Shown here in pieces: positions 14,307 through 34,712 of a stretch of DNA of 64,000 bases. The stretch spans positions 310,001 to 374,000 of the forward strand of contig FREU01000004.1 in the NCBI GenBank assembly GCA_900143615.1, in the 5' to 3' direction. A program made the translations under genes and the position numbers. Every line of letters begins with the position of its first letter. Within the stretch, counting starts at the first letter, position 1. The notes below the pieces were generated by a model that was given only the letters and a program-made list of their open reading frames with translations, did not search any database and was not told where the DNA came from. The stretch is from Rhodobacteraceae bacterium Alg231-30. GTDB taxonomy: Bacteria; Pseudomonadota; Alphaproteobacteria; Rhodobacterales; Rhodobacteraceae.

Positions 14307-17300
14307 TCAACTGATCTTCTCAAGCTGGACCTCACCACCCTCCTCCCTTGCGCCAAACTTCGCAGCCCATTTCTGCACCCCAAAGATGTCAAAATAGATG
14401 CTCAGCAACGAGGGCAACACCAAGGTGACCAAGATCATCGACGCGGTCAGCCCTGCCGCCACCGACACAGCGAGGGGTACCATAGTCTGCACATGCGGCG
14501 AGGTATTGGCGATCAGCGGCAGCAATCCGGCCACCGTTGTGCTGGTCGACAACAAAATCGGTCGAAATCGTGCGCGCACTGCATCCAGTGTCGCCGCCAG
14601 ATGATCATCGCCGCGCAAATGGGTCTGGAAAAACGACAAAAAAAGGATCGCGTTATTGACCACAATGCCTGCCAGCGACGCAAATCCGATCAGACTGGGC
14701 ATCGATAGGTCCAACCCCATCGCCCAATGGCCCAGAATTGTCCCAATCAACGCAAAAGGGATCGACAACATCACAATCACTGGCAGCGTATAACTACGGA
14801 ACTGAAACGCCAGAACCATATAGACCCCCAGCAATCCCAGCAAAAGTTTGGTCCCCATGGACGACTGCGATTTCTGCTGTTCCTCGGCAGCTCCACGGAT
14901 GGACACAGTCACGTCGGGATACAAAGCCGCCAATTCCGGCACGACCTCTTCAAGCACGTAATTCGAAATGACCGTTGATGTTGTTGCCGCTCGATCAATC
15001 TGGCCCACAATATTGGCCACAACACGCCCGTTTTTGCGGGTGATCGTCGGATAGCTGTCCTCCAGAACAATATCAGCCACGGCCATCAATGCGGTCTGCT
15101 GCCCGTTACCAACAATTATCGGAAACTGTTCCAATTCAGTCAGGCTCGACACCGTGTCTCCCAACTGAACCTGCACATTTACATTCGAGGCACCCACGCG
15201 AAATGTGTCGGTTTCCGAGCCTTCAAAAGCCTGCCGAAGCTGTCCTGCAAGCCCCTGAGGTGTTAACCCCACCGAATAGCCGTACTCCTTGAGCGTCAGC
15301 CGCACTTCCTGTCGCCCGCCGTAGAAATCGGAATAGGCTTCTTTGACATCAATTCGCGCCAGCAAGCGTTGCAAAATCTGCGCAGCCGCGGCTTCTATCT
15401 GCACAGGCTCACGCCCTGAGACATCGATATCGATATCATTGCCACCTGGACCCATTTCGTTCTGACCAAAGCTCACTTGTTGGATATCCGCCATCGGCCC
15501 GGACAGATCGCGCCAGGCAATGACCACCTCATCGGCTGATACATTGCGGGAGGCAGCCTCCCTCAAATCAACCGTAATCGTGGCAGTGTTTGATCCATTG
15601 TCATTCACATTGGAATTGGCCCCATAGCGTACCAGAACCCGCTCCACCAACGGTTGGCCGCCTTGAGTGAAGGGGGTAAACTGTGCATCCACTTGATCAA
15701 GCGCCACCAATATTTGCTCCACCGTTGTCACGGTACGCTCTCGTGAAATACCGGTGGTCATCGACAGTTTCGCTTCAATCGTGTCACCTTCCACAACCGG
15801 AAAGCCCACAACTTTGATCTGCCCCGAAGCGATCAACCCCACCGACAGGATCAGTGCCCCAAAAACACACCCGATTGTCAGATAGCGCACCCGCGCCAGT
15901 GCCGCCGCCAATGGCACCACCACATTTTCGGTGAACCGCTCCAACAGACGAGATGCCATACGCGGCTTTGGTGGCTCCTTGGTGGCAATTTTTACGTGGC
16001 TCAAATGGTGTGGCAGGATCAGAAACCCTTCCACCAACGACAGCGCCAGCGTCAACAACAGCACCATCGGAATAAACTTGAGAGTCTCGCCCAAATCGCC
16101 TTCGATGAACATCAGCGGGCCAAATACACAGGCCGTGGTCAGAAACGACGACAACACACCGGGCATGATTTCTACCGTGCCGCGCCACGCCGCCTCTTTG
16201 GGACCAACCCGACGGCGCCACTTGTCGATATTTTCGGCAATCACAATGGAATCGTCCATGATCAGACCTACCGCGATCAGCAAGGCAATCAGGGTGATCA
16301 TATTAATGGTCAGCCCAAAGCTTTGCATCAAGAACAGACCACCAAGAAAGGACACAGGCAAAGCCGCCGATATCCAAAGGGCTTCCTTCAACGAAAAAAA
16401 CAGCCACATCACCGCAAACACCAGCGCCAGACCAAGCACGATATTGCCAATAATCAGGCTCAGGCGTTCTTCGATGATTTCGGACAAATTGTTGATGATG
16501 GTCAACTGAAACGGGGCCGGATAAGCCGCGTGCTCGGCTTTGATAATCGCATCCACCTTATCAAAAATGCGAATAGAATCCCCGTCTGTTGCCTTGAGAA
16601 TTTGGATAATCGCGGCCTGTTCGCCGTTTACAAAACTCTGCGTGTTTTCGTCGCTGTCCACGATCCGCACCGTAGCTAGGTTGCTCAGCCGCACAATGCC
16701 TCCGTCACCGTTTTGCAAGATGATCAGATCTTCCAATTCGGTAATGGAGCGACGCGCATCCGAATACCGCAGCACAAGACTTTTGTCGTCGGTCGACACC
16801 TCGCCCAAGGGCTGCTGCAGCGAGCGCGCATTGATCGCATCGACCACGCTCTGACTGCTCAGACCGTGACGGCGCAAGACATCTTCGTCAAAAGTGACCT
16901 GCAATTCACGATCAGTTAGCCCGGTGACATTGGCTTCACTGATCCCGTCCAACGCCTGAAACTTCTCGGCCAACTCGTCCGTGTATTCCAGCAGCCCCTT
17001 TTTGCCGTCAATCCCCGACACCACCACCATCGCGATCAATTCTGAGCGCCCGCCCAGCTCAACCGCCGGAGTTTCTGCAGAGCTCGGGAAATCATTTACC
17101 CCTGATGTGGCGGAAAATATATCGTTGTAAAACTGAATGATGCTGCCACCAACTTGCATCTCTGCTGTGGCTGCGGCGCGCCCATCCATGGATAGGCATT
17201 CAAACTCTTCTAACGCATCCGTGCCCGAAATTGCGTCTTCAAGACGGGTACAGATTTCCTCATCCACATCCACCGCCGACGCGCCGGGATAGACCACGGA

Positions 17301-17435
17301 CACAGCCACGGTCGAGGCGGTGATATCGGGAAACGTCTCACGCTCAAGCTCTGGGATTGTCGCCAACCCCAAAATGCAGATCAGCGCCATTAACAAATTG
17401 GCGGCAACCGGATGGCGGACAAACCATTCAATCAT
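14307..17435 (-). CDS. RND efflux pump inner-membrane permease (AcrB-like)
   Basis: A 1042-residue proton-driven transporter with the usual RND layout: TM1 near 10-30, a large periplasmic loop, TM2-6 at about 330-530, a second loop, and TM8-12 at about 850-1030. The proton-relay aspartates are in VGLIMDDSIVIAEN (TM4). The second-half signature SLAGIVVNNAILFLSF (TM10) is present. It works with the adaptor encoded one base upstream; no outer-membrane channel gene is adjacent. Such pumps export drugs, dyes or lipids. The substrate is unknown. Confidence 0.92.
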   Translation of the reverse strand: MIEWFVRHPVAANLLMALICILGLATIPELERETFPDITASTVAVSVVYPGASAVDVDEEICTRLEDAISGTDALEEFECLSMDGRAAATAEMQVGGSIIQFYNDIFSATSGVNDFPSSAETPAVELGGRSELIAMVVVSGIDGKKGLLEYTDELAEKFQALDGISEANVTGLTDRELQVTFDEDVLRRHGLSSQSVVDAINARSLQQPLGEVSTDDKSLVLRYSDARRSITELEDLIILQNGDGGIVRLSNLATVRIVDSDENTQSFVNGEQAAIIQILKATDGDSIRIFDKVDAIIKAEHAAYPAPFQLTIINNLSEIIEERLSLIIGNIVLGLALVFAVMWLFFSLKEALWISAALPVSFLGGLFLMQSFGLTINMITLIALLIAVGLIMDDSIVIAENIDKWRRRVGPKEAAWRGTVEIMPGVLSSFLTTACVFGPLMFIEGDLGETLKFIPMVLLLTLALSLVEGFLILPHHLSHVKIATKEPPKPRMASRLLERFTENVVVPLAAALARVRYLTIGCVFGALILSVGLIASGQIKVVGFPVVEGDTIEAKLSMTTGISRERTVTTVEQILVALDQVDAQFTPFTQGGQPLVERVLVRYGANSNVNDNGSNTATITVDLREAASRNVSADEVVIAWRDLSGPMADIQQVSFGQNEMGPGGNDIDIDVSGREPVQIEAAAAQILQRLLARIDVKEAYSDFYGGRQEVRLTLKEYGYSVGLTPQGLAGQLRQAFEGSETDTFRVGASNVNVQVQLGDTVSSLTELEQFPIIVGNGQQTALMAVADIVLEDSYPTITRKNGRVVANIVGQIDRAATTSTVISNYVLEEVVPELAALYPDVTVSIRGAAEEQQKSQSSMGTKLLLGLLGVYMVLAFQFRSYTLPVIVMLSIPFALIGTILGHWAMGLDLSMPSLIGFASLAGIVVNNAILFLSFFQTHLRGDDHLAATLDAVRARFRPILLSTSTTVAGLLPLIANTSPHVQTMVPLAVSVAAGLTASMILVTLVLPSLLSIYFDIFGVQKWAAKFGAREEGGEVQLEKIS

Positions 17436-17436
17436 G

Positions 17437-18777
17437 TCAGCTCTCCGCGCCGGCCATCAATACCTGCAATGCCATCCCGATCACCGGTGGAGACGGCTCG
17501 CTCAACACCACAATATCACCCTGCTCCAACCCGTCGCGCACCAAAATGCTCTGCCCCATGGCTGGCCCTTTGGTGATCTCGCGCTTGGACAATCGCTGCT
17601 CGGCATCAGCCAAATACACAAATGACGTGCCATCGTCGTTGTAGCGAACCGCCGTGCGCGGGATGGTGATCCACCCGTCCACCGGTGGGGTTTCAAACAC
17701 CACTGACACATAGGCGCCCACATCCAAACGCGGACGGTTTAGCATCGGCATCCCAATCAGTGGATCGTCAACCCGCACGGCGATGCCCATAGTCGCGGTG
17801 TCCGTGTCCAAAGTTCCGCGCACACGTACCAAGTCTGCGGGCCAAACCGCATCCAGATCCCCCAGAGAAAACCGGACCTCGGCAGTGACACCTGCGTTTT
17901 TCAACATCGAGATCACAGCCGATGTGTCGACGCCGCCTTCAGGAAATTCTATTTCCGGCCGGACAGCTAACAAAACCGGGAAAAACGAACTCGGTTGCAG
18001 CTCGACCATCACTTCAACCGCCGATGTATCCTCAAGAGACAATAGCTCGCTGCCCACACTTATGGACTGACCCACTTCCGCATTTACCGTCGCCACGCGC
18101 GCTCTGAATGGCGCGGTTATCACAGCTTTCTCAATTGAGCGCTCAGCTTCGCGCAACTCGGCTTCGCGCACTGCACGCGTGGCCTTCAAAGAATCTGTTT
18201 GGGCCGGATAAAGAGCCATCGCGTTTTGCAGATTCAACACTGCATTTTGCTGCGCCAAAAGTGTCTTTTGCGTGGTGTCCAACGTGGCCTGCGTTGCGGC
18301 CCCGCGCTCTACAAGCTCTGAAATCCGGTCAAATTCCGCTTGTGCCACTTCCAGGGTGCGTTGTTCCAAAAGCAGCGAGCGTTGGGTGTTTTCGCTCTGG
18401 CGCGCGATTTCACGGATCTGCGCCTCAACCGCTGCGATATTGGCCTGCGCCTTCTGTCGCGCCAACTCGTAATCAGTCACATCAATTTTGAACAGCACAT
18501 CGCCTTGCTCAACGATACTACCCTCCGCCAGCGCCCCCGGAATCTCTTCGATTCGGGCTGCCACCTCAGACACCGCCAACCAATCCCGCACCGTTTGAAC
18601 CCGCCCAAAGCCGGTCGCTGTGGCACGCACAGGCTCGATTTCAATCTCCATGGCGCGCACGGTCAGTTGCGTTTCTTCCTGCCGCGTGACGTCTTCGGGG
18701 CGCTCGCGGGTCATCCAGTTAAAACCCAACATGGCGATCACAATGGGTGGCAGAATGAGAAGGGGGCGCAGGTTCAT
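17437..18777 (-). CDS. RND pump periplasmic adaptor (HlyD/MFP family)
   Basis: A 446-residue adaptor anchored by an N-terminal signal/TM (LLILPPIVIAMLGF, 6-20). A lipoyl half-motif follows (AARIEEIPGALAEGSIVEQGDVLFKID), then a long helical hairpin (about 110-215, rich in Gln/Glu/Ala heptads), the second lipoyl half (ITAPFRARVATVNAEVGQSISVG) and beta-barrel domains. The ATG at 18777 is chosen over a GTG two codons upstream. The permease start lies one base after this stop. The 237 bases upstream contain no recognisable regulator gene or clear operator. Confidence 0.9.
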   Translation of the reverse strand: MNLRPLLILPPIVIAMLGFNWMTRERPEDVTRQEETQLTVRAMEIEIEPVRATATGFGRVQTVRDWLAVSEVAARIEEIPGALAEGSIVEQGDVLFKIDVTDYELARQKAQANIAAVEAQIREIARQSENTQRSLLLEQRTLEVAQAEFDRISELVERGAATQATLDTTQKTLLAQQNAVLNLQNAMALYPAQTDSLKATRAVREAELREAERSIEKAVITAPFRARVATVNAEVGQSISVGSELLSLEDTSAVEVMVELQPSSFFPVLLAVRPEIEFPEGGVDTSAVISMLKNAGVTAEVRFSLGDLDAVWPADLVRVRGTLDTDTATMGIAVRVDDPLIGMPMLNRPRLDVGAYVSVVFETPPVDGWITIPRTAVRYNDDGTSFVYLADAEQRLSKREITKGPAMGQSILVRDGLEQGDIVVLSEPSPPVIGMALQVLMAGAES

Positions 18778-19014
18778 AGTCACTCACCAACTTTGTTAGT
18801 TAAATCAAGAAAATCAGCCCCCACAAGGCCAACTTCCAGCACTCTTCAACGACCAACTTTTACACCTGCAAAGACGTGAAATCTGGGCAATCATTCACTT
18901 CAGGATCATGTGGCAAAATCGTTTAGTCAATGCAACATTTGAGGCAGGCATCCAGAATTACATGCTCACCTACCTGTGTCTACACCACCTGTACGTAGCT
19001 TTGTTCGAAATCAT

Positions 19015-20691
19015 TTAGGCGCATAAATCACCATCCAAGCCTGTGCCATCCGGTGAGACGTCAGCGCCACTTTTCGCTGCCGAGGGATCCTCCATCAGCG
19101 ACTTGATCACGCCCCATGCCATCATCACCACCAAGACCGAGATCGGCAGTGCAGCGGCGATGGCGGCGGTTTGTAGCGCGGCCAACCCTCCGGCAAACAA
19201 CAGCACAGCCGCCACCAATCCCTGCGCGGCCCCCCAGATAACGCGGTGACGTTTGGGGGGATGCGGATTGCCCATTGATAGGATTGTGGTCACCACCAAC
19301 GTGCCTGAATCCGAGCTGGTGATGAACCATGTCGCAAGCAAGAGTGTGGTCAGCGCCGACACCAGCCAAGCCATTGTGCCACCATGGGTCAACAGCTCGA
19401 TTGTCCCGAACAAAGTGCCACCAAGGTTCCAGTTGTTGACCATGTCAATCAACCCCGCCGTGCCGACGCCTCCCACCGCATTCATTTCCAAAAACAGCGC
19501 ATTGCCGCCAAATATGGTGATCCAGACAAAGGCCATCGTGGTCGGCACCAGCATCGCGCCAAACATATACTCACGAATGGTACGCCCTTTGGAAATACGG
19601 GCGAAAAACATACCCACAAACGGCGCCCAACTGAGCCACCAGCCCCAATAAAACATAGTCCAGCCGCCCTGCCAGGCAACATCGCCTGGGGCTGAGGCCG
19701 TCCAAAACCCCATCGACAGAAATTGCGTAAGATAGTCGCCTGTGGCGGTGAGGAAGAACCCCATCAACCACTGACTTGGACCCGCTATGAAGAAAAACAC
19801 GATCAAGGCAGCGGTTAGCAATATATTCCATTCCGACAGCAGCTTAATGCCCCGCCCAATACCGGATACGGCGGTCAATGTGGCAACAATCGAAATCACA
19901 ACCACCAAGACCACCTGCGTGCCAACACCGGGATCGACACCAAACAACACGTTCATGCCCTGCGCCATTTGGGTTGCGCCCAACCCCATCGAGGTTGCAA
20001 TCCCAAAGATCGTTCCAAACACCGCCAACAGATCCACCGCATGACCAGCGGGGCCGTAAATCCTGTCCCCTAAAATCGGATAAAGTGCCGAGCGAAACGT
20101 CAGAGGCAGCTTTTTGCGAAAGGCAAAATACCCCAACGCCAATCCCGTCAGCGTATAAACTGCCCAGCCATGCAGCCCCCAATGAAAATTAGTCACCCGC
20201 ACCGCATCCACCGCGCGTTGCATATCCATGTCGTGATGTCCCGCCGCATCAGCAAACGGATTGTTGGGATAGCCCCATCCCGCCGAATTATCGAAATAAA
20301 ACAGCGGCTCAGCCACGCCAAAGAACATAATACCAATCGACACCGACGCCGAAAACAACATCGCATACCACGAAAACCGGCTGAATTCGGGCTTAGCGTC
20401 ATCATCCCCCAATCGCACCGATCCAAAGCGGCTGAACATAAGATAGAGACTGGCAAAGAGGATTATGATGATCGAGCTGATGTAATACCAACTCAACGCA
20501 CCTTCGACCCACGCACGAATGCCCCCATATAGAGCCCCCGCATATTCCAAATTCAGGATTGTGAAGACCACAAAAGCCGCCACCATCGCTTTTGAGGCGA
20601 TGCTCATCCCGCTGTGCAGGCCTTTAAATGGCCCTTGGCCCGCAACCGATAGGGTTGCGGTCGATCTGGGGGTTTTGCGTGTCACGGTCAC
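19015..20691 (-). CDS. BCCT-family betaine/carnitine/choline-type transporter
   Basis: A 558-residue secondary transporter with about twelve transmembrane segments. Seen: MFFGVAEPLFYF near 115-125, and the diagnostic tryptophan-rich stretch FYWGWWLSWAPFVGMFFARISKGRTIREY near 340-370. This family moves compounds with a quaternary or fully substituted nitrogen. A GTG start at 20691 is used because AGGAGA lies four bases before it and no ATG is well placed. It is the last gene of the catabolic operon below, so the substrate is probably the compound that the operon breaks down, rather than an osmolyte. Confidence 0.9.
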   Translation of the reverse strand: MTVTRKTPRSTATLSVAGQGPFKGLHSGMSIASKAMVAAFVVFTILNLEYAGALYGGIRAWVEGALSWYYISSIIIILFASLYLMFSRFGSVRLGDDDAKPEFSRFSWYAMLFSASVSIGIMFFGVAEPLFYFDNSAGWGYPNNPFADAAGHHDMDMQRAVDAVRVTNFHWGLHGWAVYTLTGLALGYFAFRKKLPLTFRSALYPILGDRIYGPAGHAVDLLAVFGTIFGIATSMGLGATQMAQGMNVLFGVDPGVGTQVVLVVVISIVATLTAVSGIGRGIKLLSEWNILLTAALIVFFFIAGPSQWLMGFFLTATGDYLTQFLSMGFWTASAPGDVAWQGGWTMFYWGWWLSWAPFVGMFFARISKGRTIREYMFGAMLVPTTMAFVWITIFGGNALFLEMNAVGGVGTAGLIDMVNNWNLGGTLFGTIELLTHGGTMAWLVSALTTLLLATWFITSSDSGTLVVTTILSMGNPHPPKRHRVIWGAAQGLVAAVLLFAGGLAALQTAAIAAALPISVLVVMMAWGVIKSLMEDPSAAKSGADVSPDGTGLDGDLCA

Positions 20692-20749
20692 AAGTCTCCT
20701 GCGGAGTTGCGGATCGCAACAAACTCAGAGCCTTAGAGCAGAAGACGTG

Positions 20750-22216
20750 TCAGCGCATCACAAATGGGTCGGGAATGGGTGTATCGGCGGTTCGCAGCCA
20801 CACGGCCTTGACCTTGGTGTAATCCAGCGCCGCCTCAATCCCGCCTTCGCGCCCGTGTCCTGACAAACCATGGCCGCCAAACGGCGCAATCGGGCTGACC
20901 GCGCGATAGGTGTTCACCCAGACGATGCCGGCCCGAATGGCGCGGATCATCCGATGCGCCCGCGTCAGGTTTTGCGTGAACACGCCGGACGCCAGACCAA
21001 ACTCGGTATCATTGGCAATCGCAACTGCTTCCGCCTCGGTCTCAAAGCTGACCACAGACAACACTGGCCCAAAGAACTCGTGGGAAAGACATTCAGCATC
21101 CTGCGCCCCATCGCAATCCAGAATGGTCGGTGGGAAATAAAATCCCTCCCGATCCAACGCCTGCCCACCAGTCACAAGCTTGGCCCCTTGCGCAACCGAA
21201 CGCTCTATCACCGCAACTGCCGTGTCACGCTGCCGTTTGGTGCATAGCGGCCCAACTTCGGTGGCCATATCATCAGGCTCCCCGATGACCACCGCCTCCG
21301 CCTTCTCTTTCAGCCGTGCCAAAAACGCGTCCTTGATCTTGGCATGCACCACAAGGCGCGAGCCGGACACACAGCTTTGGCCTGTGGCGGCAAACACACC
21401 GGACACCTGCGCGTTCACAGCACTTTCCAGATCCGCATCGTCAAACACGATGAACGGCGATTTGCCCCCCAACTCCAACGATGTGGACGCCAGATTTTCT
21501 GCCGAATTGCGCAAAATATGGCGCGCAGTTTCAGGCCCGCCGGTAAAGGCCACATGCGCCACCTTGGCATGGCTGCTCAGCGCCGCGCCCACCTCGGCCC
21601 CGCCAGTCAGCACATTCAGAACCCCCTTGGGAAAGCCCGCCTGATCAAAAATGCGCGCAAATTCCAAAAGCGGCGCAGGTCCTTCTTCGCTGGCTTTCAA
21701 CACCACGGTGCAGCCGGCCGCCAAAGCAGGCCCGATCTTCACAGCCGACAGAAACAGCTGCGAATTCCACGGGACCACAGCGGCCACCACACCAATCGGC
21801 TCGCGCCGCAGCCAGACTTCCATATCCGGCTTATCAATCGGCAGATGCGCGCCCTCGATCTTGTCTGCCAGCCCTGCGTAATAGCGATAATACTCCGCGA
21901 CATAGGCAATCTGCGCGCTGGTTTCGCGAATGATCTTGCCGGTGTCGCGTGTTTCCAGCTCCGCCAACCGTGGCGCATTTTCAGCAATCAAATCCGCCAG
22001 CCGAAGCAACAGCTTGCCGCGCGCAGTCGCTGTCATCAACGCCCACTCGGGCGACAGAAACGCCCGATCCGCAGCGTCTACAGCGCGATCAACATCCGCC
22101 ACCGAGGCCGCAGGCATCTCTGCCCATGCTGACCCAGTGGCCGGATCAAGGCTGTCAAACCGGCTGGCTCCGTCATCAAAGGCGCCGTCGATATACTGCT
22201 GAAAATTTTGCATCAT
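20750..22216 (-). CDS. NAD(P)-dependent aldehyde dehydrogenase
   Basis: A 488-residue class of the ALDH superfamily. Catalytic cysteine C282 lies in GQSCVSGSR and the general base E248 in STSLELGGKSP. The Rossmann region includes VVPWNSQL and TGGAEVGAAL. It oxidises an aldehyde to an acid in the cytoplasm. It lies between a BCCT transporter gene and LLM monooxygenase genes, and so likely oxidises an aldehyde or lactol made by the ring-opening monooxygenase. The closest functional parallel is TgnC of trigonelline breakdown, but ALDH substrate cannot be read from motifs. Confidence 0.88.
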   Translation of the reverse strand: MMQNFQQYIDGAFDDGASRFDSLDPATGSAWAEMPAASVADVDRAVDAADRAFLSPEWALMTATARGKLLLRLADLIAENAPRLAELETRDTGKIIRETSAQIAYVAEYYRYYAGLADKIEGAHLPIDKPDMEVWLRREPIGVVAAVVPWNSQLFLSAVKIGPALAAGCTVVLKASEEGPAPLLEFARIFDQAGFPKGVLNVLTGGAEVGAALSSHAKVAHVAFTGGPETARHILRNSAENLASTSLELGGKSPFIVFDDADLESAVNAQVSGVFAATGQSCVSGSRLVVHAKIKDAFLARLKEKAEAVVIGEPDDMATEVGPLCTKRQRDTAVAVIERSVAQGAKLVTGGQALDREGFYFPPTILDCDGAQDAECLSHEFFGPVLSVVSFETEAEAVAIANDTEFGLASGVFTQNLTRAHRMIRAIRAGIVWVNTYRAVSPIAPFGGHGLSGHGREGGIEAALDYTKVKAVWLRTADTPIPDPFVMR

Positions 22217-22234
22217 AATTTCCTTGACTGCCTC

Positions 22235-23272
22235 TTAGGCGAAGGCTGGCATAACCTCGTTGATAAACCGCTCAAGCGAAGCTTTCTTGCGCTCAAACGG
22301 CATCGAACTGTCGATCCAGAACGAATATTCATCATAGCCCAGTGTCTCATAAACCTTGAGCCGTTCAATCACTTTGTCCGGCGTGCCGATCACCAGATCG
22401 CGCTCCATGCCTTCGGGCGAATACATCGGGTGGGCCGCGATTTCTTCTTCGCTCAACGTCGCGATCTGCCCCTGATTGACGTCGCGCTTGTTCATGAACC
22501 ACGCGCCGAAATAGCAATAGAACTGGTTCAGCTCGACAGCCCCCTGTTTCGCATCCGCCTCACTGTCCGCCACATAGGTATGCAGCAGCAACATGATCTT
22601 GGGGCGCGGTTGCTCCGGGTATTTCGCACAGGCATCGTTGAACTTGCCCATCAAGTCGGCAATTTCACCCTCGCCATTCCACAGTGGCGTTACCTGTACG
22701 TTGCAGCCCTGCTCCACCGCAAACTCGTGGCTGCTGGGATCACGCGCCGCAATCCACATCGGCGGGCCGCCCGCCTGAATGGGCTGCGGAGACGATGTGG
22801 TTTTGGGGAACTGATGGAATTCGCCCTCATGGGCATAATCGCCTCTCCACAATTCCTTGACCGCGGGCACCAACTCACGCATGCGCTGCCCTGCTTCCCA
22901 GGCATCCATGCCCGGCATCAACCGCTCATACTCATAGGAATAGGCGCCGCGCGCGATGCCGATATCCAACCGCCCGTCGGTGATGATATCCGTCATCGCC
23001 GCCTCGCCTGCCAAGCGGATTGGATGCCAGAACGGCGCAATCACCGTGCCCGTCCCCAGACGCACATTTTTCGTCTGGCGCGCCACATCCACAAGGCTGA
23101 TGAACGGGTTTGGCGCAATGGTGAAATTCATCCCGTGATGTTCACCCGTCCAAACTGCATGCATCCCGCCTTCATCGGCGATTTTGCACAGCGCGATGAA
23201 CTCCTCGTACATCTGCTTCTGATCCTGATCTGCGGAAATGCGCTCCATATGCGCAAAAAGCGAGAACTTCAT
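22235..23272 (-). CDS. LLM-class flavin-dependent monooxygenase (oxygenase component)
   Basis: A 345-residue luciferase-like TIM barrel using reduced FMN and oxygen. Typical parts: EFIALCKIADEGGMHAVWTGEHHG (23-47), NVRLGTGTVIAPFWHPIRLAGEAAMTDIITDGRLDIGIARG, and the C-terminal IGTPDKVIERLKVYE. It lacks its own flavin reductase domain; that partner is the adjacent gene, making a two-component system. In the tgn pathway such an enzyme opens the pyridinium ring of trigonelline. The position of this gene between an ALDH, a reductase and a hydrolase fits this. Start chosen for family N-terminus. Confidence 0.85.
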   Translation of the reverse strand: MKFSLFAHMERISADQDQKQMYEEFIALCKIADEGGMHAVWTGEHHGMNFTIAPNPFISLVDVARQTKNVRLGTGTVIAPFWHPIRLAGEAAMTDIITDGRLDIGIARGAYSYEYERLMPGMDAWEAGQRMRELVPAVKELWRGDYAHEGEFHQFPKTTSSPQPIQAGGPPMWIAARDPSSHEFAVEQGCNVQVTPLWNGEGEIADLMGKFNDACAKYPEQPRPKIMLLLHTYVADSEADAKQGAVELNQFYCYFGAWFMNKRDVNQGQIATLSEEEIAAHPMYSPEGMERDLVIGTPDKVIERLKVYETLGYDEYSFWIDSSMPFERKKASLERFINEVMPAFA

Positions 23273-23275
23273 GCC

Positions 23276-24193
23276 TCAACTCCCTGATGTCATCGGGCGC
23301 ACCTGTCCCGCGACGTGGTTGCCGTAATAAACTCCGAAATTGCCCATCCGGCTTTCTTCTGCGAACCGCTCTAACATCGTGCAGACAGCAGGGTCTGTGA
23401 TGTCCATCAAGGTTGTCGCATTCAGCTCGGTAAACGCACCATAGGTGGCGCTCTCCCCGCTGGCTTGGCACAAAAACGAAATATGATGCGTGTCGCGCGC
23501 GTCATCCTGGTAAACGGAATAGACAAATCCGGGCTCTGCCGTAACGCCGCTCTGCGCGATCAACCGCGTCAGTGCCGCGCTGGCGCCATCTTTGGACACT
23601 TTGGCCTCGGGCAGGCGCAACCCGCCGCCACCATCGTCCACAAGCAACACCTTGCCCTGATGTTCGATCAAGGCTGAGACTGTCAGATTGGCGCTATTGC
23701 TCAGGGCTTCTGCCTCAGCCGCCGGCGTCACATAGGCCCCACGCGCATATCCCAACCCCGGATGGGTGAAGTTTTCAAAGGCTTCCACCTTGCCGATCAG
23801 GATCAAGTGATCCCCCGCCGGCACAGTCTTGTGCATCGAACAATCAAACCACGCCGAGACCCCGTCAAACACCGGCGATCCATGCGGCCCCGCGCGCCAG
23901 TTTACTGCCGCAAACCGATCCTCCACAGGCCGCGCAAAGGTGTTGGAAACATCCTTTTGGTTTTCCGCCAGCACATTCACTGCAAACCCCTTGGCCTGCG
24001 CCAGCGCATCATAATTGCTGGAGCCATTGGCCAGACAGACCAAGACCAGCGGCGGATCAAGCGACACCGACGTAAACGAATTCGCGGTAAACCCGATTGG
24101 CGCGCCGTCCTCATCCTGTGCAGTCACAACCGTCACTCCGGTCATGAAGGCGCCAAAGGCATTGCGCAATTCGCGTGGATCAATCTCACTCAT
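23276..24193 (-). CDS. Flavin reductase fused to a Nudix-like C-terminal domain
   Basis: A 305-residue two-domain protein. Residues 1-160 are a DIM6/NTAB-type flavin reductase (LRNAFGAFMTGVTVVTA, FTANSFTSVSLDPPLVLVCL), which supplies reduced flavin to the neighbouring LLM oxygenase. Residues about 165-300 resemble a Nudix fold (LIEHQGKVLLVDDGGGGLRLPEA), but the catalytic GX5EX7REUXEE helix is not conserved (SKDGASAALTRLIAQSGV), so it is probably non-catalytic and sensory or structural. The stop of the hydrolase gene upstream overlaps this start (ATGA). Confidence 0.8.
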   Translation of the reverse strand: MSEIDPRELRNAFGAFMTGVTVVTAQDEDGAPIGFTANSFTSVSLDPPLVLVCLANGSSNYDALAQAKGFAVNVLAENQKDVSNTFARPVEDRFAAVNWRAGPHGSPVFDGVSAWFDCSMHKTVPAGDHLILIGKVEAFENFTHPGLGYARGAYVTPAAEAEALSNSANLTVSALIEHQGKVLLVDDGGGGLRLPEAKVSKDGASAALTRLIAQSGVTAEPGFVYSVYQDDARDTHHISFLCQASGESATYGAFTELNATTLMDITDPAVCTMLERFAEESRMGNFGVYYGNHVAGQVRPMTSGS

Positions 24194-24999
24194 GCCGACA
24201 CTCCCTCTGCTGTGCTGTGCAACCAGTTTAGCAGGATTTGCGAGACCACCTCAGGCGCGGTCAGGTTGATCATGTGGCGATGATCTTCAATCACCACCGC
24301 TTGCCCCAAAGGAGCGGCCTCCGCCATGGCTTGCGACATGGCAGGTGTGGAATTCAAATCGCCATCTCCGGTGAGGGCCAACAACGGGCAGCGAATGTCG
24401 CCAAAGCGGTCCGCATAGGTGGCATCGCCCCGCGCAAACGCGCCATAGGCTGTGGCGTAGCCCCGCAAATCCACAGCCTGCAACCAACCGGCCACATCGG
24501 CCCGCGCCGCCTGCTCGGCTGCACTATCACCAAACCAGCGCGCCAGCGGAGTTTCCAGATCCACCGACCCCGCGCCGATCTCTGCAGCGCGCAACTCAAC
24601 GGCGGCGCGCGCGTCTTCGGTCCGGCGATACACACCGTTCAGCAACGCCACCCGCGCCAACATCTCGGAATGCCCCACGGCATATCCGGCAGCGATCAAC
24701 GCCCCCATCGAATGCCCCACAAGGCTCACATCCCGCAGCTCCAAAGCCACAAGCGCCGCCTGCAGCCAATCTACATAATCTTCAAGCGTCGCCCCTTTGG
24801 GCAAAGCAGACGAGCCACCATGCCCCGGCATATCCAACGCGATCACCTTATGTGTCGCCGACAAAGCCGCCAACTGCGGCCCCCACGCCGCAGATTGCAG
24901 ACCCACCCCATGGATCAACACCACCGGCGCACCCGCACCTGCATGGCGATAGGCCAGCGTGCCGTAAGGCTCAGACAGCTGCAGGGTTGTCAACGTCAT
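24190..24999 (-). CDS. Alpha/beta-fold hydrolase
   Basis: A 269-residue hydrolase. The nucleophile is S97 in GHSMGA. HGVGLQSAAW (oxyanion strand, 30-39) and DMPGHGGSS (56-64) are the usual loops. The catalytic Asp/His are probably in LLALTGDGDLNST and IEDHRHMINL. It would cleave an ester, amide or C-C bond of the ring-opened product; TgnD of trigonelline breakdown is of this fold. It starts 29 bases inside the preceding DUF1185 gene and overlaps the flavin reductase start by four bases. Confidence 0.85.
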   Translation of the reverse strand: MTLTTLQLSEPYGTLAYRHAGAGAPVVLIHGVGLQSAAWGPQLAALSATHKVIALDMPGHGGSSALPKGATLEDYVDWLQAALVALELRDVSLVGHSMGALIAAGYAVGHSEMLARVALLNGVYRRTEDARAAVELRAAEIGAGSVDLETPLARWFGDSAAEQAARADVAGWLQAVDLRGYATAYGAFARGDATYADRFGDIRCPLLALTGDGDLNSTPAMSQAMAEAAPLGQAVVIEDHRHMINLTAPEVVSQILLNWLHSTAEGVSA

Positions 25000-25573
25000 G
25001 GCCCAATTCCTTCAGATCCTGATAACGATCGCCAATACGATGATGCGGCCGCCCGCCAATCGACGCGCCCAGCGCGATCACGATCTCATCCGGCCCCGGC
25101 GCATCCGCCACTTGCAACTGAATGGTCAGGTAATGACTGCGCCGCCCGCCATCGTTTTTATCCATCAAAGGGATCTGCAACGGCGCATTCGCCGGCCCGC
25201 GCGTGTTGGTGAACGCCAGATAGGATTTTGCCCCCACGGCCTCGCGATAATGGTTTCCAAACCGCAACGTGTGGATCAGAGCCGATCCATGCTCCACCTC
25301 ACCGTTCACGCCAACAATGGCTGACTTTCCATAGCCTTCAACATTGTCGCCACCACCGGCGGCCTCCAAAATCATGCGGGTCAACAACGCGCCCAAAGGC
25401 GAGGCACAATCATGGATTTCAGGACGCAGGTCTTCGACAAATCCACGCCCCGCCCAGGGGTTTTTGATCACCGCCACCGCCGCAATCATTTTCAAAGGCT
25501 GGGCCGCAGCTTTACCCCCTTCAATCAGGGTCTCTTCAACATGCAGCAGGGTTTTGCGGATTTCGGCAGGCAT
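24971..25573 (-). CDS. DUF1185 (amino acid synthesis family) protein
   Basis: A 200-residue protein of the DUF1185 family: VVAVIKNPWAGRGFVEDLRPEIHD-type stretch near 30-55, GGGDNVEGYGKSAIVGVNGE, RFGNHYREAVGAKSYLAFTNTRG, and SIGGRPHHRIGDRYQDLKE. The fold is known; the function is not well established, although the family often lies in amine and pyrimidine catabolic operons. The ATG at 25573 is chosen. It is the first gene of the minus-strand operon, behind the palindrome at 25608. Confidence 0.8.
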   Translation of the reverse strand: MPAEIRKTLLHVEETLIEGGKAAAQPLKMIAAVAVIKNPWAGRGFVEDLRPEIHDCASPLGALLTRMILEAAGGGDNVEGYGKSAIVGVNGEVEHGSALIHTLRFGNHYREAVGAKSYLAFTNTRGPANAPLQIPLMDKNDGGRRSHYLTIQLQVADAPGPDEIVIALGASIGGRPHHRIGDRYQDLKELGHDVDNPAAV

Positions 25574-25607
25574 AGGACATCTCTCATCTGAGTCGTTTTT
25601 CTGTACG

Positions 25608-25627
25608 ATGGTATACCAACATACCAT
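25608..25627. promoter_or_regulatory. Palindromic GntR operator in the divergent promoter
   Basis: ATGGTAT-ACCAAC-ATACCAT has two perfect 7-bp arms (25608-25614 and 25621-25627). The inner TGGTATACCA is itself palindromic. TGGTATACCA-like sites are typical of FadR/VanR-type GntR regulators. It lies between the DUF1185 start (25573, minus) and the GntR start (25677, plus), the right place to control both. Confidence 0.65.
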
Positions 25628-25676
25628 ATGTCAATCATACTTGCGCACCTGTCTCCGGACGGCTATCAACATTTCC

Positions 25677-26363
25677 ATGAGCACATCCCGTCTTTCCAAG
25701 ATCGAACAACCCCCAATGACCCTGCGCGATATGGTGCAGGAACGCATGCGCGACGCCATTATCGAAGGCCATTTTCAACCCGGCGAACGTCTGGTGGAAC
25801 GCCCGCTCTGTGATCAGCTTGGCGTTAGCCGCACCGTGGTGCGCGAAACCATCCGCTATCTCGAAGCCGAGGGTCTGGTGGAAATCCTGCCCGGTCATGG
25901 CCCGATCGTGGCGCGTATGGACTGGGACAATGCGCGGCAAATCTATGACATCCGCCGCATGCTGGAAACGGCTGCCGCGCGCGACTGTGCCAACAACATC
26001 ACCGACGCGCGTGCCAAAAAGCTCATTGCGGCGCTTGGCCGCCTCAAACGCACGTCTTCCGGCGCAGCCCCGGGCGCAATGTTTCGCGCAACCTCGGATT
26101 TTTACGATGAAATCTTCCAAGGTGCGGGGCATCACGTCGCATGGGAAGTGGTGCAACGTCTCAATGGCCGCATCAGCCGTCTGCGTATGATGACCCTCTC
26201 TTCTACGGAACGCGACCGTCCCGGCCCCGAACATATGCAAGCCATTTGCGATGCGATTGTTTCAGGCGATGGCGAGGCCGCCGCTGCCGCCGTCAACCAA
26301 CACCTGCAGGACACAGCCCGCATCGCCGAGCGGCTGCTGGCTCAGGATCAAAACGGGGAATAG
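25677..26363 (+). CDS. GntR-family (FCD) transcriptional regulator
   Basis: A 228-residue regulator with a winged-helix domain at about 15-85 (MVQERMRDAIIEGHFQPGERLVERPLCDQLGVSRTVVRETIRYLEAEGLVE) and an all-helical FCD ligand domain (YDIRRMLETAAARDCANN; a metal-ligand histidine cluster is weak, with HH and NQH). The family senses small acids or amines. It is divergent from the BCCT/LLM operon across the palindrome at 25608 and first in a three-gene plus-strand unit. It is the likely repressor or activator of both. Confidence 0.88.
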   Translation: MSTSRLSKIEQPPMTLRDMVQERMRDAIIEGHFQPGERLVERPLCDQLGVSRTVVRETIRYLEAEGLVEILPGHGPIVARMDWDNARQIYDIRRMLETAAARDCANNITDARAKKLIAALGRLKRTSSGAAPGAMFRATSDFYDEIFQGAGHHVAWEVVQRLNGRISRLRMMTLSSTERDRPGPEHMQAICDAIVSGDGEAAAAAVNQHLQDTARIAERLLAQDQNGE

Positions 26364-26365
26364 CC

Positions 26366-26653
26366 ATGCCCAAAGCCTATTGGATCGCAAATGTCACCGT
26401 TACCGACCCCGAGGCCTATCAAGGCTATCAGGCCATCGCACCCGAGGCCTTTGCCGAATTTGGCGCGCGCTTCTTGGCGCGCGGCGAGGCGCAAACGCTG
26501 GAAGGTCGCGACTGGCAACGCCGCGTGGTGATCGAATTTGACAACGTGGCACAAGCTCAAGCCTGCTACGACTCCGCCACCTACCGCGCCGCACGCGCCC
26601 GTCGCGCCAATGCGTGCGAAGCGGACATCGCCATTATCGAGGGGCTTGCATGA
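26366..26653 (+). CDS. DUF1330 protein
   Basis: A 95-residue ferredoxin-like (dimeric alpha/beta barrel) protein. It opens KAYWIANVTVTDPEAYQGY and continues EFGARFLARGEAQTLEG and RRVVIEFDNVAQAQACYDSATYRAARARR, all DUF1330 signatures. The family is often found in catabolic operons; no reaction is proven. It begins two bases after the GntR stop, so it is cotranscribed. Confidence 0.85.
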   Translation: MPKAYWIANVTVTDPEAYQGYQAIAPEAFAEFGARFLARGEAQTLEGRDWQRRVVIEFDNVAQAQACYDSATYRAARARRANACEADIAIIEGLA

Positions 26654-26678
26654 ACCGCGCCCCTCAGAAGGTGTCGCC

Positions 26679-27095
26679 ATGATAGCCTATGTCACCGTCG
26701 GCGCAGACGACATCGCACGTGCAGAACGGTTCTATTCGGCATTCCTGCCGGCCCTTGGCTACGGGTTAGAACACTATCACGGAGATCTCAGCTATATTTT
26801 GCCTCCGTCAACAGACCAGTCCTCCGCTTTGCCGGACTTCTATGTCAAATCCCCTGCGAATGGAGGCCCGGCCTCTGCGGGCAATGGCTCTATGGTGGCC
26901 TTTCAGGCGCGCAATCAACACCAGGTGCGCTCCCTGCATGCCGCAGCACTGGCCGCCGGTGGCACAGATGAAGGCGCACCCGGCTTTCGTGCAAACTATG
27001 GACCGCAATTCTACGTCGGCTATCTTCGCGACCCGCAGGGAAACAAAATCGCCCTCTTTTCAAGCAATCCAAACGATCCCGGACGCGACGACTAA
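26679..27095 (+). CDS. VOC-family (glyoxalase/bleomycin-resistance fold) protein
   Basis: A 138-residue VOC protein: VTVGADDIARAERFYSAFLPALGYG at the N-terminus, HHAAALAAGG-type helix (HAAALAAGGTDEG), and FYVGYLRDPQGNKIALFSS at the end, which includes the family DPxGN turn and a conserved metal-ligand glutamate position replaced by Ala. It may therefore be a binding or isomerase-like member. It follows DUF1330 with a 25-base gap and AGAAGG upstream; cotranscribed with gntR. Confidence 0.8.
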   Translation: MIAYVTVGADDIARAERFYSAFLPALGYGLEHYHGDLSYILPPSTDQSSALPDFYVKSPANGGPASAGNGSMVAFQARNQHQVRSLHAAALAAGGTDEGAPGFRANYGPQFYVGYLRDPQGNKIALFSSNPNDPGRDD

Positions 27096-27218: not shown

Positions 27219-27758
27219 CTAGTCCAAGGTCAACGCCCGCCAACTCTGTTTTGTCAGGCAAAAGCGTTTCCAGACCAGCGCACCAGACCCAAGATCAACC
27301 ATCGTATCTTCCATAACATCCACTCCCAGCTTTCGGGTTGCCTTCTGCGACCGCAGATTGCTGGGATCAATGTGAAACCAGACACGCTCAAAGCTTGTGA
27401 ATGCATGATCCAACATGAGTTTTTTCAACTCGCGGTTCACCACCCCACCCCAAAAACTGTGATGCACAAAGGTAAAGCCGATGCCGATATCGCCAGCAAT
27501 GTCTGGACTGTCATAATAACGTGAACAGCCGATAACCTGACCATTGCTGCGGGTGATCACCACAAGCGTGCCACCCGCATTCATCAGAAAGTCAAAGTAG
27601 GCATCAAAGACCTCAGGCTTCCAACGATCCTTTGAGGGATGCCCCGCCCAGTTTTCCGGCGCGCTGGCCGCCCTAAAAAGCGCCGCGCGATCACTCTCAC
27701 GCAGCCCTCTTAGGAAAAGCGTCGGGCCCGTCAACTCAGGTTGTTTCTCAAAGCTCAC
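27219..27758 (-). CDS. GNAT-family N-acetyltransferase (RimJ/RimL-like)
   Basis: A 179-residue acetyltransferase: LFLRGLRESDRAALFRAASAPE at the start, GCSRYYDSP, IGFTFVHHSFWGGVVNRELKKLML (acetyl-CoA binding region) and IDPSNLRSQKATRKLGVD, the Asn-x-x-S pattern typical of RimJ/RimL relatives. The target is unknown. It uses a GTG start that overlaps the stop of the preceding gene (GTGA at 27755-27758), so it is the last gene of the one-carbon operon. Confidence 0.85.
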   Translation of the reverse strand: MSFEKQPELTGPTLFLRGLRESDRAALFRAASAPENWAGHPSKDRWKPEVFDAYFDFLMNAGGTLVVITRSNGQVIGCSRYYDSPDIAGDIGIGFTFVHHSFWGGVVNRELKKLMLDHAFTSFERVWFHIDPSNLRSQKATRKLGVDVMEDTMVDLGSGALVWKRFCLTKQSWRALTLD

Positions 27759-30205
27759 ACCTTCACCCGCTCCGATTTGGGATCATACATCGGGCGCAAT
27801 GACGCCTCGGCTTTCACCCGTGTGCCCATGACGTCGATCTCGAAAGATGAGGCCAGCACATCCGCCGCACTCTCACCTTTACAAGGCACATAGCCCAGCC
27901 CGATCGCAGCACCTAAAGTGTGGCCATAGTTGCCTGAACTCAGATACCCGACAATCTCTCCATCCCGCAGCACCGGCTCGTTGTGATAGAGCAGTGGCTC
28001 GGGATCAGTCAGCTTGAACTGCAGCATACGGTTTTCCGGCCCGCTTTCCTTGCGTGCAATCACCGCCGCCTTGCCGATGAAATCAGCCTTATCCGTCTTC
28101 ACCGCAAAGCCCAGCCCCGCATCCACCACATGATCTTCGCAGGTGATGTCATGGCCAAAATGGCGAAAGCCTTTTTCGATCCGGCAACTGTCCATCATAT
28201 GCATGCCGCACAGCTTCAGCCCCATGTCCTGCCCCGCCGCGTGCAAGGTCTCAAAGGCATGGCCGGCCATGTCCGAAGAAACATAAATCTCCCAGCCCAG
28301 CTCACCCACATAGGTCACCCGATGTGCCCGCGCCAATCCCATGCCCAGCTCGATCTCTTGGGCTGTGCCAAAAGAATTGCTGGCATTTGAGAAATCCGCC
28401 GGCGACACCCGCTCCAGCAAGGCTCGTGAATTTGGTCCCATGATAGCCAACACACCTTCGCCAGCGGTCACATCGGTAATCACCACATTAAACGCGCCTA
28501 TGTTGCGCATCATCCACGTCTGATCCGCCAGCCTCGTGGCTGCCGGTGTCACCACCAGATAGGCGGTTTCGCTCAGCCGCGTGACCGTCACATCCGCCTC
28601 GATCCCACCGCGCGTGTTCAGAAACTGCGTATAGACGATCTTGCCCACAGGCACCGAGTAATCCCCGCCGCCCACATAGTTCAAAAACGCTTCCGCGTCT
28701 GGCCCTTCGACACGGATTTTGCCAAAGGAGGTCATGTCATACATGCCGACGTTTTCACGCACCGCACGATGCTCGGCTGCGGAATTTTCAAACCAGTTCT
28801 GCCGCTTCCACGTGTAGTGGTACTCGCGCTCTTGCCCTTCATTGGCAAACCAGTTCGCCCGCTCCCAGCCTGCCAATTCGCCAAACACAGCCCCCTGCTC
28901 TTTCAGGTGGTGATGGAACGGCGTGCGCCGCACACCCCGCGCGGTGGCCTTTTGACGGTAGGGGTAATGGTCCGCATAAAGCAGCCCCAGCGTCTCCTTA
29001 GAGCGTTCAAACAGATAGGTTTTATTACCCTGAAACCTCTGCATCCGGCTGATATCCACATCGCCCAGATCAAAGGGCTTCTGCCCGTCCTCCATCCACT
29101 GCGCCAGCGCCATGCCAGCGCCGCCTGCGGATTGAATGCCGATGGAATTGAACCCAGCTGCCACCCAGACATTGTCCATCTCAGGTGCGAGGCCCAAATG
29201 ATAGGCATCATCCGGCGTGAAACTTTCCGGTCCGTTGAAAAACGTGTGAATCCCCGCTTCGCCCAACATCGGCATACGTTCCACCGCCCACTCTAAGATC
29301 GGCTCAAAGTGGTCGAAATCCTCGGGCAGCTGATCAAACTCAAAGCTCTCGGGGATGCCCTTCATCGCCCAAGGTTTGGCGTTGGGCTCAAAAGCGCCCA
29401 GCATCATCTTGCCCGCATCTTCTTTGTAGTAGGCACATTCATCCGGCACCCGCAGCACCGGCATCTGCGTGAGGCCCTTGATCGGCTCAGACACGATATA
29501 GAAATGCTCACAAGCATGCAGCGGCACGTTCACACCCGCCATGCGGCCCACTTCGTGCCCCCACATGCCCGCACAGTTCACCACCATATCCGCCGCGATA
29601 TGCCCCTGCGCAGACCCATCATCCGATTGCCAATCCACGCCGGTCACACGGCGTCCGCTCTTGGCAATCCCCGTCACTTTGACGCGTTCCTTGACCACAG
29701 CCCCACGTTGGCGCGCGCCTTTGGCCAGCGCCAGCGCGATATTGGCCGGATCGCCCTGACCATCCTTGGGCAGGTACACACCGCCTGTGACACCTTCGAT
29801 ATTGAGGTGTTCATAGCGCGCCTTGACCTCGGCTGGGTCGATTTCCTCAACATCCACCCCAAAGGCCCGCGCCATCGCCGCCTGACGGTAAATCTCCTCG
29901 CGGCGCTCTTCCGTGAGGGCCACAGTGATCGAGCCCACCCGCTTGAACCCTGTCGCCACGCCGGTCTCTGCTTCCAGATTGCCGTAGAGTTCTTGGGAAT
30001 ACTTCGCCAGCTTGGTCATATTCGCCGTGGCGCGCAGTTGGGCAATCAGACCTGCGGCGTGCCATGTGGTGCCGGAGGTCAGCTGTTTGCGTTCCAGCAG
30101 CATCACGTCCTGCCAGCCAAGTTTGGTCAAATGATAGGCCACCGAGCAGCCGACAACGCCGCCGCCGATAATGACCACGCGGGCTTTGGTTGGGAGATCA
30201 GTCAT
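27755..30205 (-). CDS. Dimethylglycine dehydrogenase-like FAD/GcvT protein (paralogue B)
   Basis: An 816-residue two-domain enzyme. Residues 1-390 are an FAD oxidoreductase (VVIIGGGVVGCSVAYHL at 10-26, then TTWHAAGL near 48-55, the region of covalent FAD linkage in the family). Residues about 430-816 are GcvT/aminomethyltransferase-like domains (IRVEGPDAEAFLNYVGGGDYSVPVGK, HDITCEDHVVDAGLGFAVK). Family members oxidatively demethylate dimethylglycine, sarcosine or related N-methyl amines and pass the methyl group to tetrahydrofolate. Same length as paralogue A at 32252. Which N-methyl substrate each uses is unknown. Confidence 0.88.
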   Translation of the reverse strand: MTDLPTKARVVIIGGGVVGCSVAYHLTKLGWQDVMLLERKQLTSGTTWHAAGLIAQLRATANMTKLAKYSQELYGNLEAETGVATGFKRVGSITVALTEERREEIYRQAAMARAFGVDVEEIDPAEVKARYEHLNIEGVTGGVYLPKDGQGDPANIALALAKGARQRGAVVKERVKVTGIAKSGRRVTGVDWQSDDGSAQGHIAADMVVNCAGMWGHEVGRMAGVNVPLHACEHFYIVSEPIKGLTQMPVLRVPDECAYYKEDAGKMMLGAFEPNAKPWAMKGIPESFEFDQLPEDFDHFEPILEWAVERMPMLGEAGIHTFFNGPESFTPDDAYHLGLAPEMDNVWVAAGFNSIGIQSAGGAGMALAQWMEDGQKPFDLGDVDISRMQRFQGNKTYLFERSKETLGLLYADHYPYRQKATARGVRRTPFHHHLKEQGAVFGELAGWERANWFANEGQEREYHYTWKRQNWFENSAAEHRAVRENVGMYDMTSFGKIRVEGPDAEAFLNYVGGGDYSVPVGKIVYTQFLNTRGGIEADVTVTRLSETAYLVVTPAATRLADQTWMMRNIGAFNVVITDVTAGEGVLAIMGPNSRALLERVSPADFSNASNSFGTAQEIELGMGLARAHRVTYVGELGWEIYVSSDMAGHAFETLHAAGQDMGLKLCGMHMMDSCRIEKGFRHFGHDITCEDHVVDAGLGFAVKTDKADFIGKAAVIARKESGPENRMLQFKLTDPEPLLYHNEPVLRDGEIVGYLSSGNYGHTLGAAIGLGYVPCKGESAADVLASSFEIDVMGTRVKAEASLRPMYDPKSERVKV

Positions 30206-30233
30206 GGGTCAGGCTCCTAGTCAGCGAAGGCAA

Positions 30234-30287
30234 GCGAGGGGCCAGCCCCTCGCGCTCCCCGGGATATTTTTGGCAAGAGGAAATGAA
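30234..30287 (+). repeat. Intergenic hairpin element, copy 3
   Basis: Hairpin GCGAGGGG-CCAG-CCCCTCGC (30234-30253) is followed by GCTCCCCGGGATATTTTTGGC and AAGAGGAAATGAA (30254-30287). It lies in the 86-base gap between two genes transcribed from the minus strand, so relative to transcription it is reversed. Only one hairpin is present here, whereas the other copies have two. Confidence 0.65.
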
Positions 30288-30291
30288 TTGG

Positions 30292-32237: not shown

Positions 32238-32251
32238 ATGGGTCGGCAGTG

Positions 32252-34702: not shown

Positions 34703-34712
34703 CTTCGCCTCC

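Follow-up and report, generated by a model that had tools for sequence, protein, structure and literature searches.

Trigonelline (N-methylnicotinate) is a small nitrogen-ring compound and a widespread osmolyte of plants and algae. The tgn pathway for its breakdown was reportedly worked out in Acinetobacter baylyi ADP1 (by Perchat et al. in 2018), and the chemistry given further below is that reported for A. baylyi. Here, we describe a tgn-type gene cluster in a 64,000-nucleotide stretch of Rhodobacteraceae bacterium Alg231-30, taken from contig C7 of the 4.54-Mb genome; the whole of this stretch is called the window below. Orthology, gene order, linkage and operator conservation, with every reaction inferred from the published A. 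baylyi pathway, indicate that the window very probably carries a trigonelline utilization locus.

Six genes run on the minus strand in the order DUF1185 protein, alpha/beta hydrolase, flavin reductase, luciferase-like (LLM) monooxygenase, aldehyde dehydrogenase and BCCT transporter, as assigned by Pfam, and 103 bp separate them from a plus-strand run encoding a GntR/FCD regulator, a DUF1330 protein and a VOC protein (Table 1). From the DUF1185 gene onward, the minus-strand genes overlap by 29 and 4 bp and are then spaced by 3 and 18 nt, and the BCCT gene follows after 58 nt. These genes, the tight minus-strand unit and the divergent GntR/DUF1330/VOC run had been recognized in an earlier interpretation of the DNA letters (the sequence-only reading), and Pfam matches and coordinates place all of them there; the starts of the DUF1185, GntR, DUF1330 and VOC genes were corrected from reading frames and homologues. 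None of the five catabolic proteins had an NCBIfam match at the cut-off among the matches listed (the best 25 for two of them), and comparison with characterized loci was therefore needed. Against the A. baylyi proteins (locus L016, strain DSM 14961), this comparison, which had been proposed for TgnA-D, returned identities of 50-71%: 70.7% for TgnB (345 aa), 69.9% for TgnC, 67.3% for TgnF, 51.3% for TgnD and 50.2% for TgnA (full length), with 51% for the GntR regulator and 50% for the DUF1330 protein. When plasmids were searched by tblastn for relatives of the monooxygenase (1,130 records, the best 60 of which were examined), TgnB proved 72.5% identical to a gene on an Acinetobacter sp. PK01 plasmid annotated as tgnB, 'flavin-dependent trigonelline monooxygenase oxygenase component'. 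The proposal of tgn-type pyridinium-betaine catabolism is thus borne out by five orthologous catabolic genes in the A. baylyi order together with the same type of regulator, which also favors trigonelline as the substrate.

The aldehyde dehydrogenase is 70% identical to A. baylyi TgnC versus 36% to its TgnE and, judged by this similarity, is TgnC and not TgnE; the tgnC product is a predicted MFMB dehydrogenase. The tgnD product, a predicted (E)-2-((N-methylformamido)methylene)succinate hydrolase, also matches PDB 3kxp, an alpha-(N-acetylaminomethylene)succinic acid hydrolase (E=3.8e-13). The DUF1185 gene is the only one found in the genome, and its product is 77% identical to the Sinorhizobium meliloti counterpart. 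A passage in PMC7913881 describes the DUF1185 protein HcdD as homologous to TgnF and states that TgnF stimulates the TgnE dehydrogenase in A. baylyi; DUF1185 is therefore a known part of the pathway (TgnF), not a step lacking assignment as had been suggested. The window's TgnA gave a full-length match to PDB 3rh7, the S. meliloti protein SMa0793 (L006:11066-12004), which is filed as a putative oxidoreductase and which, by orthology, is S. meliloti TgnA. The C-terminal extension of TgnA, taken in the sequence-only reading for a fused reductase with a possible extra step of its own, is usual for this protein and present in A. baylyi and in SMa0793. For an AlphaFold model of this C-terminal domain (pLDDT 77.6, pTM 0.53), the only full-length match among the best 50 was again 3rh7. 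A NUDIX-like fold, suspected by eye for the same domain, drew no Pfam hit even at a cut-off of E=10.

Relatives were collected in a contig scan, from which 80 of 559 were kept as loci; 77 of the 295 genomes of the window's family have a relative of TgnB (E up to 1e-60), all degrees of relatedness counted. In a tree of 60 TgnB proteins, a distant group of five loci (35-43% identical) and a sister clade of 12 loci with L167 inside (SH-aLRT 89) were seen. Because this tree left canonical and sister loci unseparated at its deepest forks, we built a joint TgnB-TgnC-TgnF tree of 43 loci, which puts 27 canonical loci, with the window, A. baylyi and S. meliloti among them, into a single clade (SH-aLRT 99), next to a sister clade of 11 loci (SH-aLRT 100) and with the distant group as root. 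Trigonelline is the likely substrate because, in this tree, the window branches with A. baylyi and S. meliloti and outside the sister clade. A comparison of 41 canonical with up to 12 sister sequences gave 38 near-fixed differences (two in TgnB, A137L and C190F, three in TgnD, 29 in TgnC and four in TgnF), the TgnD differences sitting just after the histidine taken as catalytic, and at all 38 the window, itself included among the 41 canonical sequences, has the canonical residue.

Conserved linkage points in the same direction. For neighbor counts, the five distant loci (L168-L172) were set aside, and short flanks removed eight of 108 canonical and two of 13 other loci, leaving 11 others, namely 10 sister loci and the mixed locus L167; these counts do not represent independent events, because near-copies are included (many from Acinetobacter and Burkholderia) and at least one genome appears twice (L068, L152). 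Relatives of TgnF and TgnC lie within 9 kb of TgnB in all 100 canonical tgnB loci with enough flank, and the grouping of the tgn genes is therefore not due to chance. A GntR relative of the window's type occurs within this distance in 93 of the 100 canonical loci, including the A. baylyi regulator in the same place, versus none of the 11 others. The DUF1330 gene (77 of 100 canonical loci, none of the 11 others) is a conserved but unassigned member of the cluster. The VOC gene, which sits after DUF1330 in the window, is probably a bystander, since it has no counterpart in any scored locus (0 of 100 canonical, 0 of 11 others).

The perfect palindrome that had been noticed between the two runs is the 10-mer TGGTATACCA, which has no second copy in the 64 kb. 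Of 107 canonical tgnF upstream regions, 84 contain it in exact form (L156 and one canonical locus were excluded for want of a usable upstream sequence), and in 93 of the 107, GTATAC or TGGTNNACCA lies no more than 150 bp before tgnF, versus 4.3 expected from shuffles that preserve base make-up only. All 121 loci together (2.40 Mb) hold just 94 copies of the exact 10-mer. Neither the operator nor a near variant was found in the 11 sister-clade upstream regions or in L167. In 43 of the 107 canonical loci, the operator is preceded by a TTGACN motif at a distance of 5-20 bp; this distance is 10 bp in 41 of them, as in the window, and 11 bp in two; any -10 element in the window is weak, and none is good. 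We predict that TGGTATACCA is the conserved operator of the GntR regulator, and its arrangement with the possible -35 element would fit an FCD-type GntR repressor site just behind the -35, with repression as the presumed outcome.

The sister operon, found in the window's family, resembles the window in its TgnF-D-A-B-C-like composition and in TgnB (64-69% identity to the window) and differs from it in TgnC (54-59%), TgnD (38-47%) and TgnA (40-44% where found; not found in four of the 12 loci). A LysR gene, assigned by Pfam for one member, lies close to the operon in 10 of the 12 loci and also beside L167, while no LysR gene was seen beside canonical loci among matches above 38% identity; L154 has instead a GntR/FCD gene of another kind, beside the tgnC end. 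None of the 11 other loci has any of the three transporter types considered below, versus 71 of 100 canonical loci. The sister operon could act on another pyridinium betaine, perhaps homarine. Among plasmids it had no close match (69% identity at best among 30 of 1,045 records). Short GXGXG (mgsB-like) proteins were found in 10 of 14 sister-operon genomes versus six of 16 canonical ones; this difference is no more than suggestive, and of the sister genomes lacking such a protein, two are only 77-81% complete. Locus L167 (genome G153; 0.5-4.5 kb and 8-10.5 kb) is mixed: canonical-type TgnF, TgnD, TgnC and GntR genes without the operator lie several kb from TgnA and TgnB, which are accompanied by the sister-type LysR. 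The distant TgnB-like group (L168-L172) has an aldehyde dehydrogenase gene nearby and, in places, DUF1185 and hydrolase relatives.

The transporter is where the window departs from the described systems. BCCT relatives at least 60% identical follow tgnC in nine of 100 other canonical loci (five of the window's family and four of Pseudovibrio); no NCS1 or ABC solute-binding gene is nearby in any of these nine, and tgnE follows the BCCT gene in eight of them. Across the 100 scored canonical loci, an NCS1-type permease lies beside 45 and an ABC binding protein beside 32, with both beside 15. The BCCT thus replaces the NCS1-type or ABC transporters found beside other tgn operons. The gene after tgnC in A. 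baylyi is 87% identical to a PK01 gene annotated as cytosine permease and is not a BCCT, so that the betaine transporter ascribed to the tgn pathway in the sequence-only reading holds for the window's branch and not for A. baylyi. We predict that the BCCT imports trigonelline, its presumed substrate. In two of four papers found to name both trigonelline and BCCT, the passages on trigonelline assign no BCCT to its uptake. We know of no earlier BCCT for an aromatic pyridinium betaine.

We lean slightly towards a dedicated trigonelline transporter, the third unrelated family recruited to this pathway and in this case in Alphaproteobacteria, with DUF1330 as a further, so far undescribed part of the pathway. 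That the BCCT is instead an unrelated osmolyte importer, for example for glycine betaine, that merely adjoins tgnC is unlikely, although BCCTs usually carry glycine betaine, choline or carnitine and the neighborhood includes dimethylglycine/sarcosine dehydrogenase-like genes. In line with that reading, too, the closest relative of solved structure is a trimethylamine transporter (8zw8), with which the HWGLH and WWLSW segments align, and the Trp-rich segments of quaternary-amine BCCTs are kept. Against such an importer, the same BCCT (75-85% identity) follows tgnC in five other genomes of the family and in four Pseudovibrio loci, without the other transporter types, and among the 295 genomes it was found only beside tgnB: a search at E up to 1e-190 gave 10 matches in nine genomes, and the six BCCTs at least 75% identical (the window included, six of 295 genomes) are each no more than 3 kb from tgnB; the four at 59-67% are located elsewhere.

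As to the substrate, the sequence-only reading had named trigonelline, homarine or a similar compound; the joint tree and the gene order speak for trigonelline and disfavor homarine. Degradation of homarine (N-methylpicolinate) instead of trigonelline appears extremely unlikely. The same kinds of enzyme could open its ring, a section heading of PMC8269262 calls it a metabolite of high abundance, and the TgnB-only tree shows no clearly greater distance from the window to the sister clade than to A. baylyi. However, in the joint tree the window falls with A. baylyi and S. meliloti, and the sister clade is separate. A passage of PMC8269262 also argues that TgnA/TgnB are unlikely to act on homarine owing to steric hindrance and reports that the marine Ruegeria pomeroyi grows better on trigonelline than on homarine. 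Homarine catabolism is said, in a passage of PMC13390433, to involve Mgd; a GXGXG search of the genome, made with no Mgd reference sequence, returned a single protein of GltB size (1543 aa) and no short mgsB-like one, so that no usual N-methylglutamate synthase subunit was found, and by eye the genome's three SoxA-type operons, of unassigned substrate, have no mgs- or gmaS-like neighbors. It is very unlikely, too, that the window's branch acts on a related N-methylated or other pyridine carboxylate that is neither trigonelline nor homarine, with the BCCT recruited to match. The divergence of TgnA and TgnD to about 50% and the transporter class, different from that of A. baylyi, would suit such a shift, but TgnB, TgnC and TgnF stay at 67-71%, the 38 near-fixed positions are all canonical in the window, and the operator is common to the window and Acinetobacter.

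Several observations nonetheless weigh against a trigonelline locus. With TgnA and TgnD only about 50% identical to A. baylyi, a substrate shift is possible. The TgnB tree does not resolve the branching order of three groups (the window's subgroup, that of A. baylyi and S. meliloti, and the sister clade), and the joint tree carries a long-branch warning for one outgroup row, L168. The S. meliloti locus has only a near copy of the operator, 29 of the 100 canonical loci lack a nearby gene for any of the three transporter types, and G210, the other species sampled from the genus, gave no match at the cut-off. TgnE lies outside the cluster: in the window between 13001 and 36000 the only match was TgnC itself (36%), and the best candidate in the genome, 56% identical to A. 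baylyi TgnE, is on another contig (G000:C9:285917-287335). Since no more than 41 of the 100 canonical loci have a TgnE relative at a distance of up to 9 kb, TgnE is not a constant feature of the cluster.

Transferred from A. baylyi, the pathway would begin with import of trigonelline by the BCCT. TgnA would supply reduced flavin to TgnB, which with O2 would open the ring between C5 and C6, and TgnC would oxidize the resulting aldehyde/hydroxylactone. TgnD would then hydrolyze the N-formyl enamine acid, releasing CO2, formate, methylamine and succinate semialdehyde, and the last of these would be converted by a succinate-semialdehyde dehydrogenase encoded elsewhere (candidate: the TgnE relative on the other contig), aided by TgnF, to succinate for the TCA cycle. 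Acting at TGGTATACCA, the GntR regulator may keep the operon repressed as long as neither trigonelline nor a pathway intermediate is present.

Table 1 Features of the tgn-type cluster in the window and loci of the sister operon
Feature	Position	Strand	Basis
tgnF, DUF1185/AA_synth, 200 aa	24971-25573	-	PF06684 E=3.7e-70
tgnD, alpha/beta hydrolase	24190-24999	-	Pfam Abhydrolase_6; 51% to A. baylyi TgnD
tgnA, flavin reductase component	23276-24193	-	Flavin_Reduct E=4.7e-43
tgnB, luciferase-like flavin monooxygenase	22235-23272	-	Bac_luciferase E=1.9e-55
tgnC, aldehyde dehydrogenase	20750-22216	-	Aldedh E=1e-163
BCCT transporter	19015-20691	-	BCCT E=1.6e-163, 545 bits over 504 aa
Palindrome TGGTATACCA, predicted GntR operator	25609-25618		Conservation upstream of tgnF
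TTGACA, possible -35 element	25629-25634	-	10 bp before operator; presumed role
GntR/FCD regulator, tgnR-like	25677-26363	+	PF00392, PF07729
DUF1330 protein	26366-26653	+	PF07045 E=6.5e-31
VOC/glyoxalase-like protein	26679-27095	+	PF00903 E=2.3e-5
Sister operon loci	L153, L154, L156-L163, L165, L166		Window's family

Downstream of the BCCT gene, the region 14307-18783 of the window encodes an AcrB-type RND pump (PF00873, E=8.8e-137) and its likely HlyD-like partner, the latter with a weak match (E=2.2e-9). On the other side of the cluster, a minus-strand run (27755-34753) holds two GcvT-fused FAD dehydrogenases of the dimethylglycine/sarcosine type together with homocysteine S-methyltransferase-like and quinone-oxidoreductase-like genes. 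The GcvT-fused dehydrogenases were rejected as members of the tgn cluster: relatives that match more than half of the window's protein stand beside only two tgn loci (L008 and L079; 31-33%), with partial matches elsewhere. A GNAT gene was rejected likewise, its relatives occurring in none of the 100 canonical loci. A carboxymuconolactone-decarboxylase-like gene, present in 49 of 100 canonical loci, was not found in the window between 13001 and 36000. PF02975, sought as a sign of methylamine use, had no match, and the control was silent as well.

Taken together, the canonical TgnB-C-F clade and the TGGTATACCA operator provide a genetic marker for likely trigonelline use by bacteria. They tell the trigonelline operon from its sister operon, whose substrate may be another pyridinium, and thereby allow gene surveys to keep the two apart. 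The analysis also ties the orphan structure 3rh7 to the reductase of trigonelline monooxygenase and predicts a new transporter assignment, that of the BCCT.

The organization closely resembles that of the known tgn loci. A. baylyi shares with the window the TgnF-D-A-B-C order, the divergent GntR and DUF1330 genes and GTATACCA in the promoter; unlike the window, which has only the BCCT gene there, it has an NCS1 cytosine-permease-type gene, TgnE, a carboxymuconolactone-decarboxylase-like gene and, judged by eye, a porin-like gene after tgnC. On the PK01 plasmid, genes annotated as tgnA, tgnB and tgnC stand in the same arrangement, and GntR and DUF1330 genes are again divergent from them. Both Acinetobacter clusters are directly preceded by sarcosine-oxidase-like genes with folD (L016:308-6412 and L005:1453-8407), and in PK01 also by purU; these genes are annotated in L005 and were recognized by similarity and by eye in L016; they possibly handle methylated by-products. 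The operon of S. meliloti pSymA (L006), flanked by nod genes on one side and nifT on the other, carries the five tgn genes of the window in unchanged order (49-77% identity). It differs from the window in that a NIPSNAP gene and an ABC transporter follow instead of the BCCT, a regulator-like match lies upstream on the same strand, DUF1330 was not found there and the operator is a near copy. A Ruegeria sp. SCSIO 43209 plasmid (L008:675-4817) carries a trimethylamine-methyltransferase-family gene and an FAD-dependent oxidoreductase near its tgn operon. In the Pseudovibrio loci (L070-L072, L090), tgnF-D-A-B-C is followed by a BCCT gene 78% identical to that of the window, with DUF1330 in all four and GntR in three (a partial match in L090); unlike in the window, TgnE and a carboxymuconolactone-decarboxylase-like gene come after the BCCT. 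The window is a further carrier of a known pathway, with the transporter swapped.

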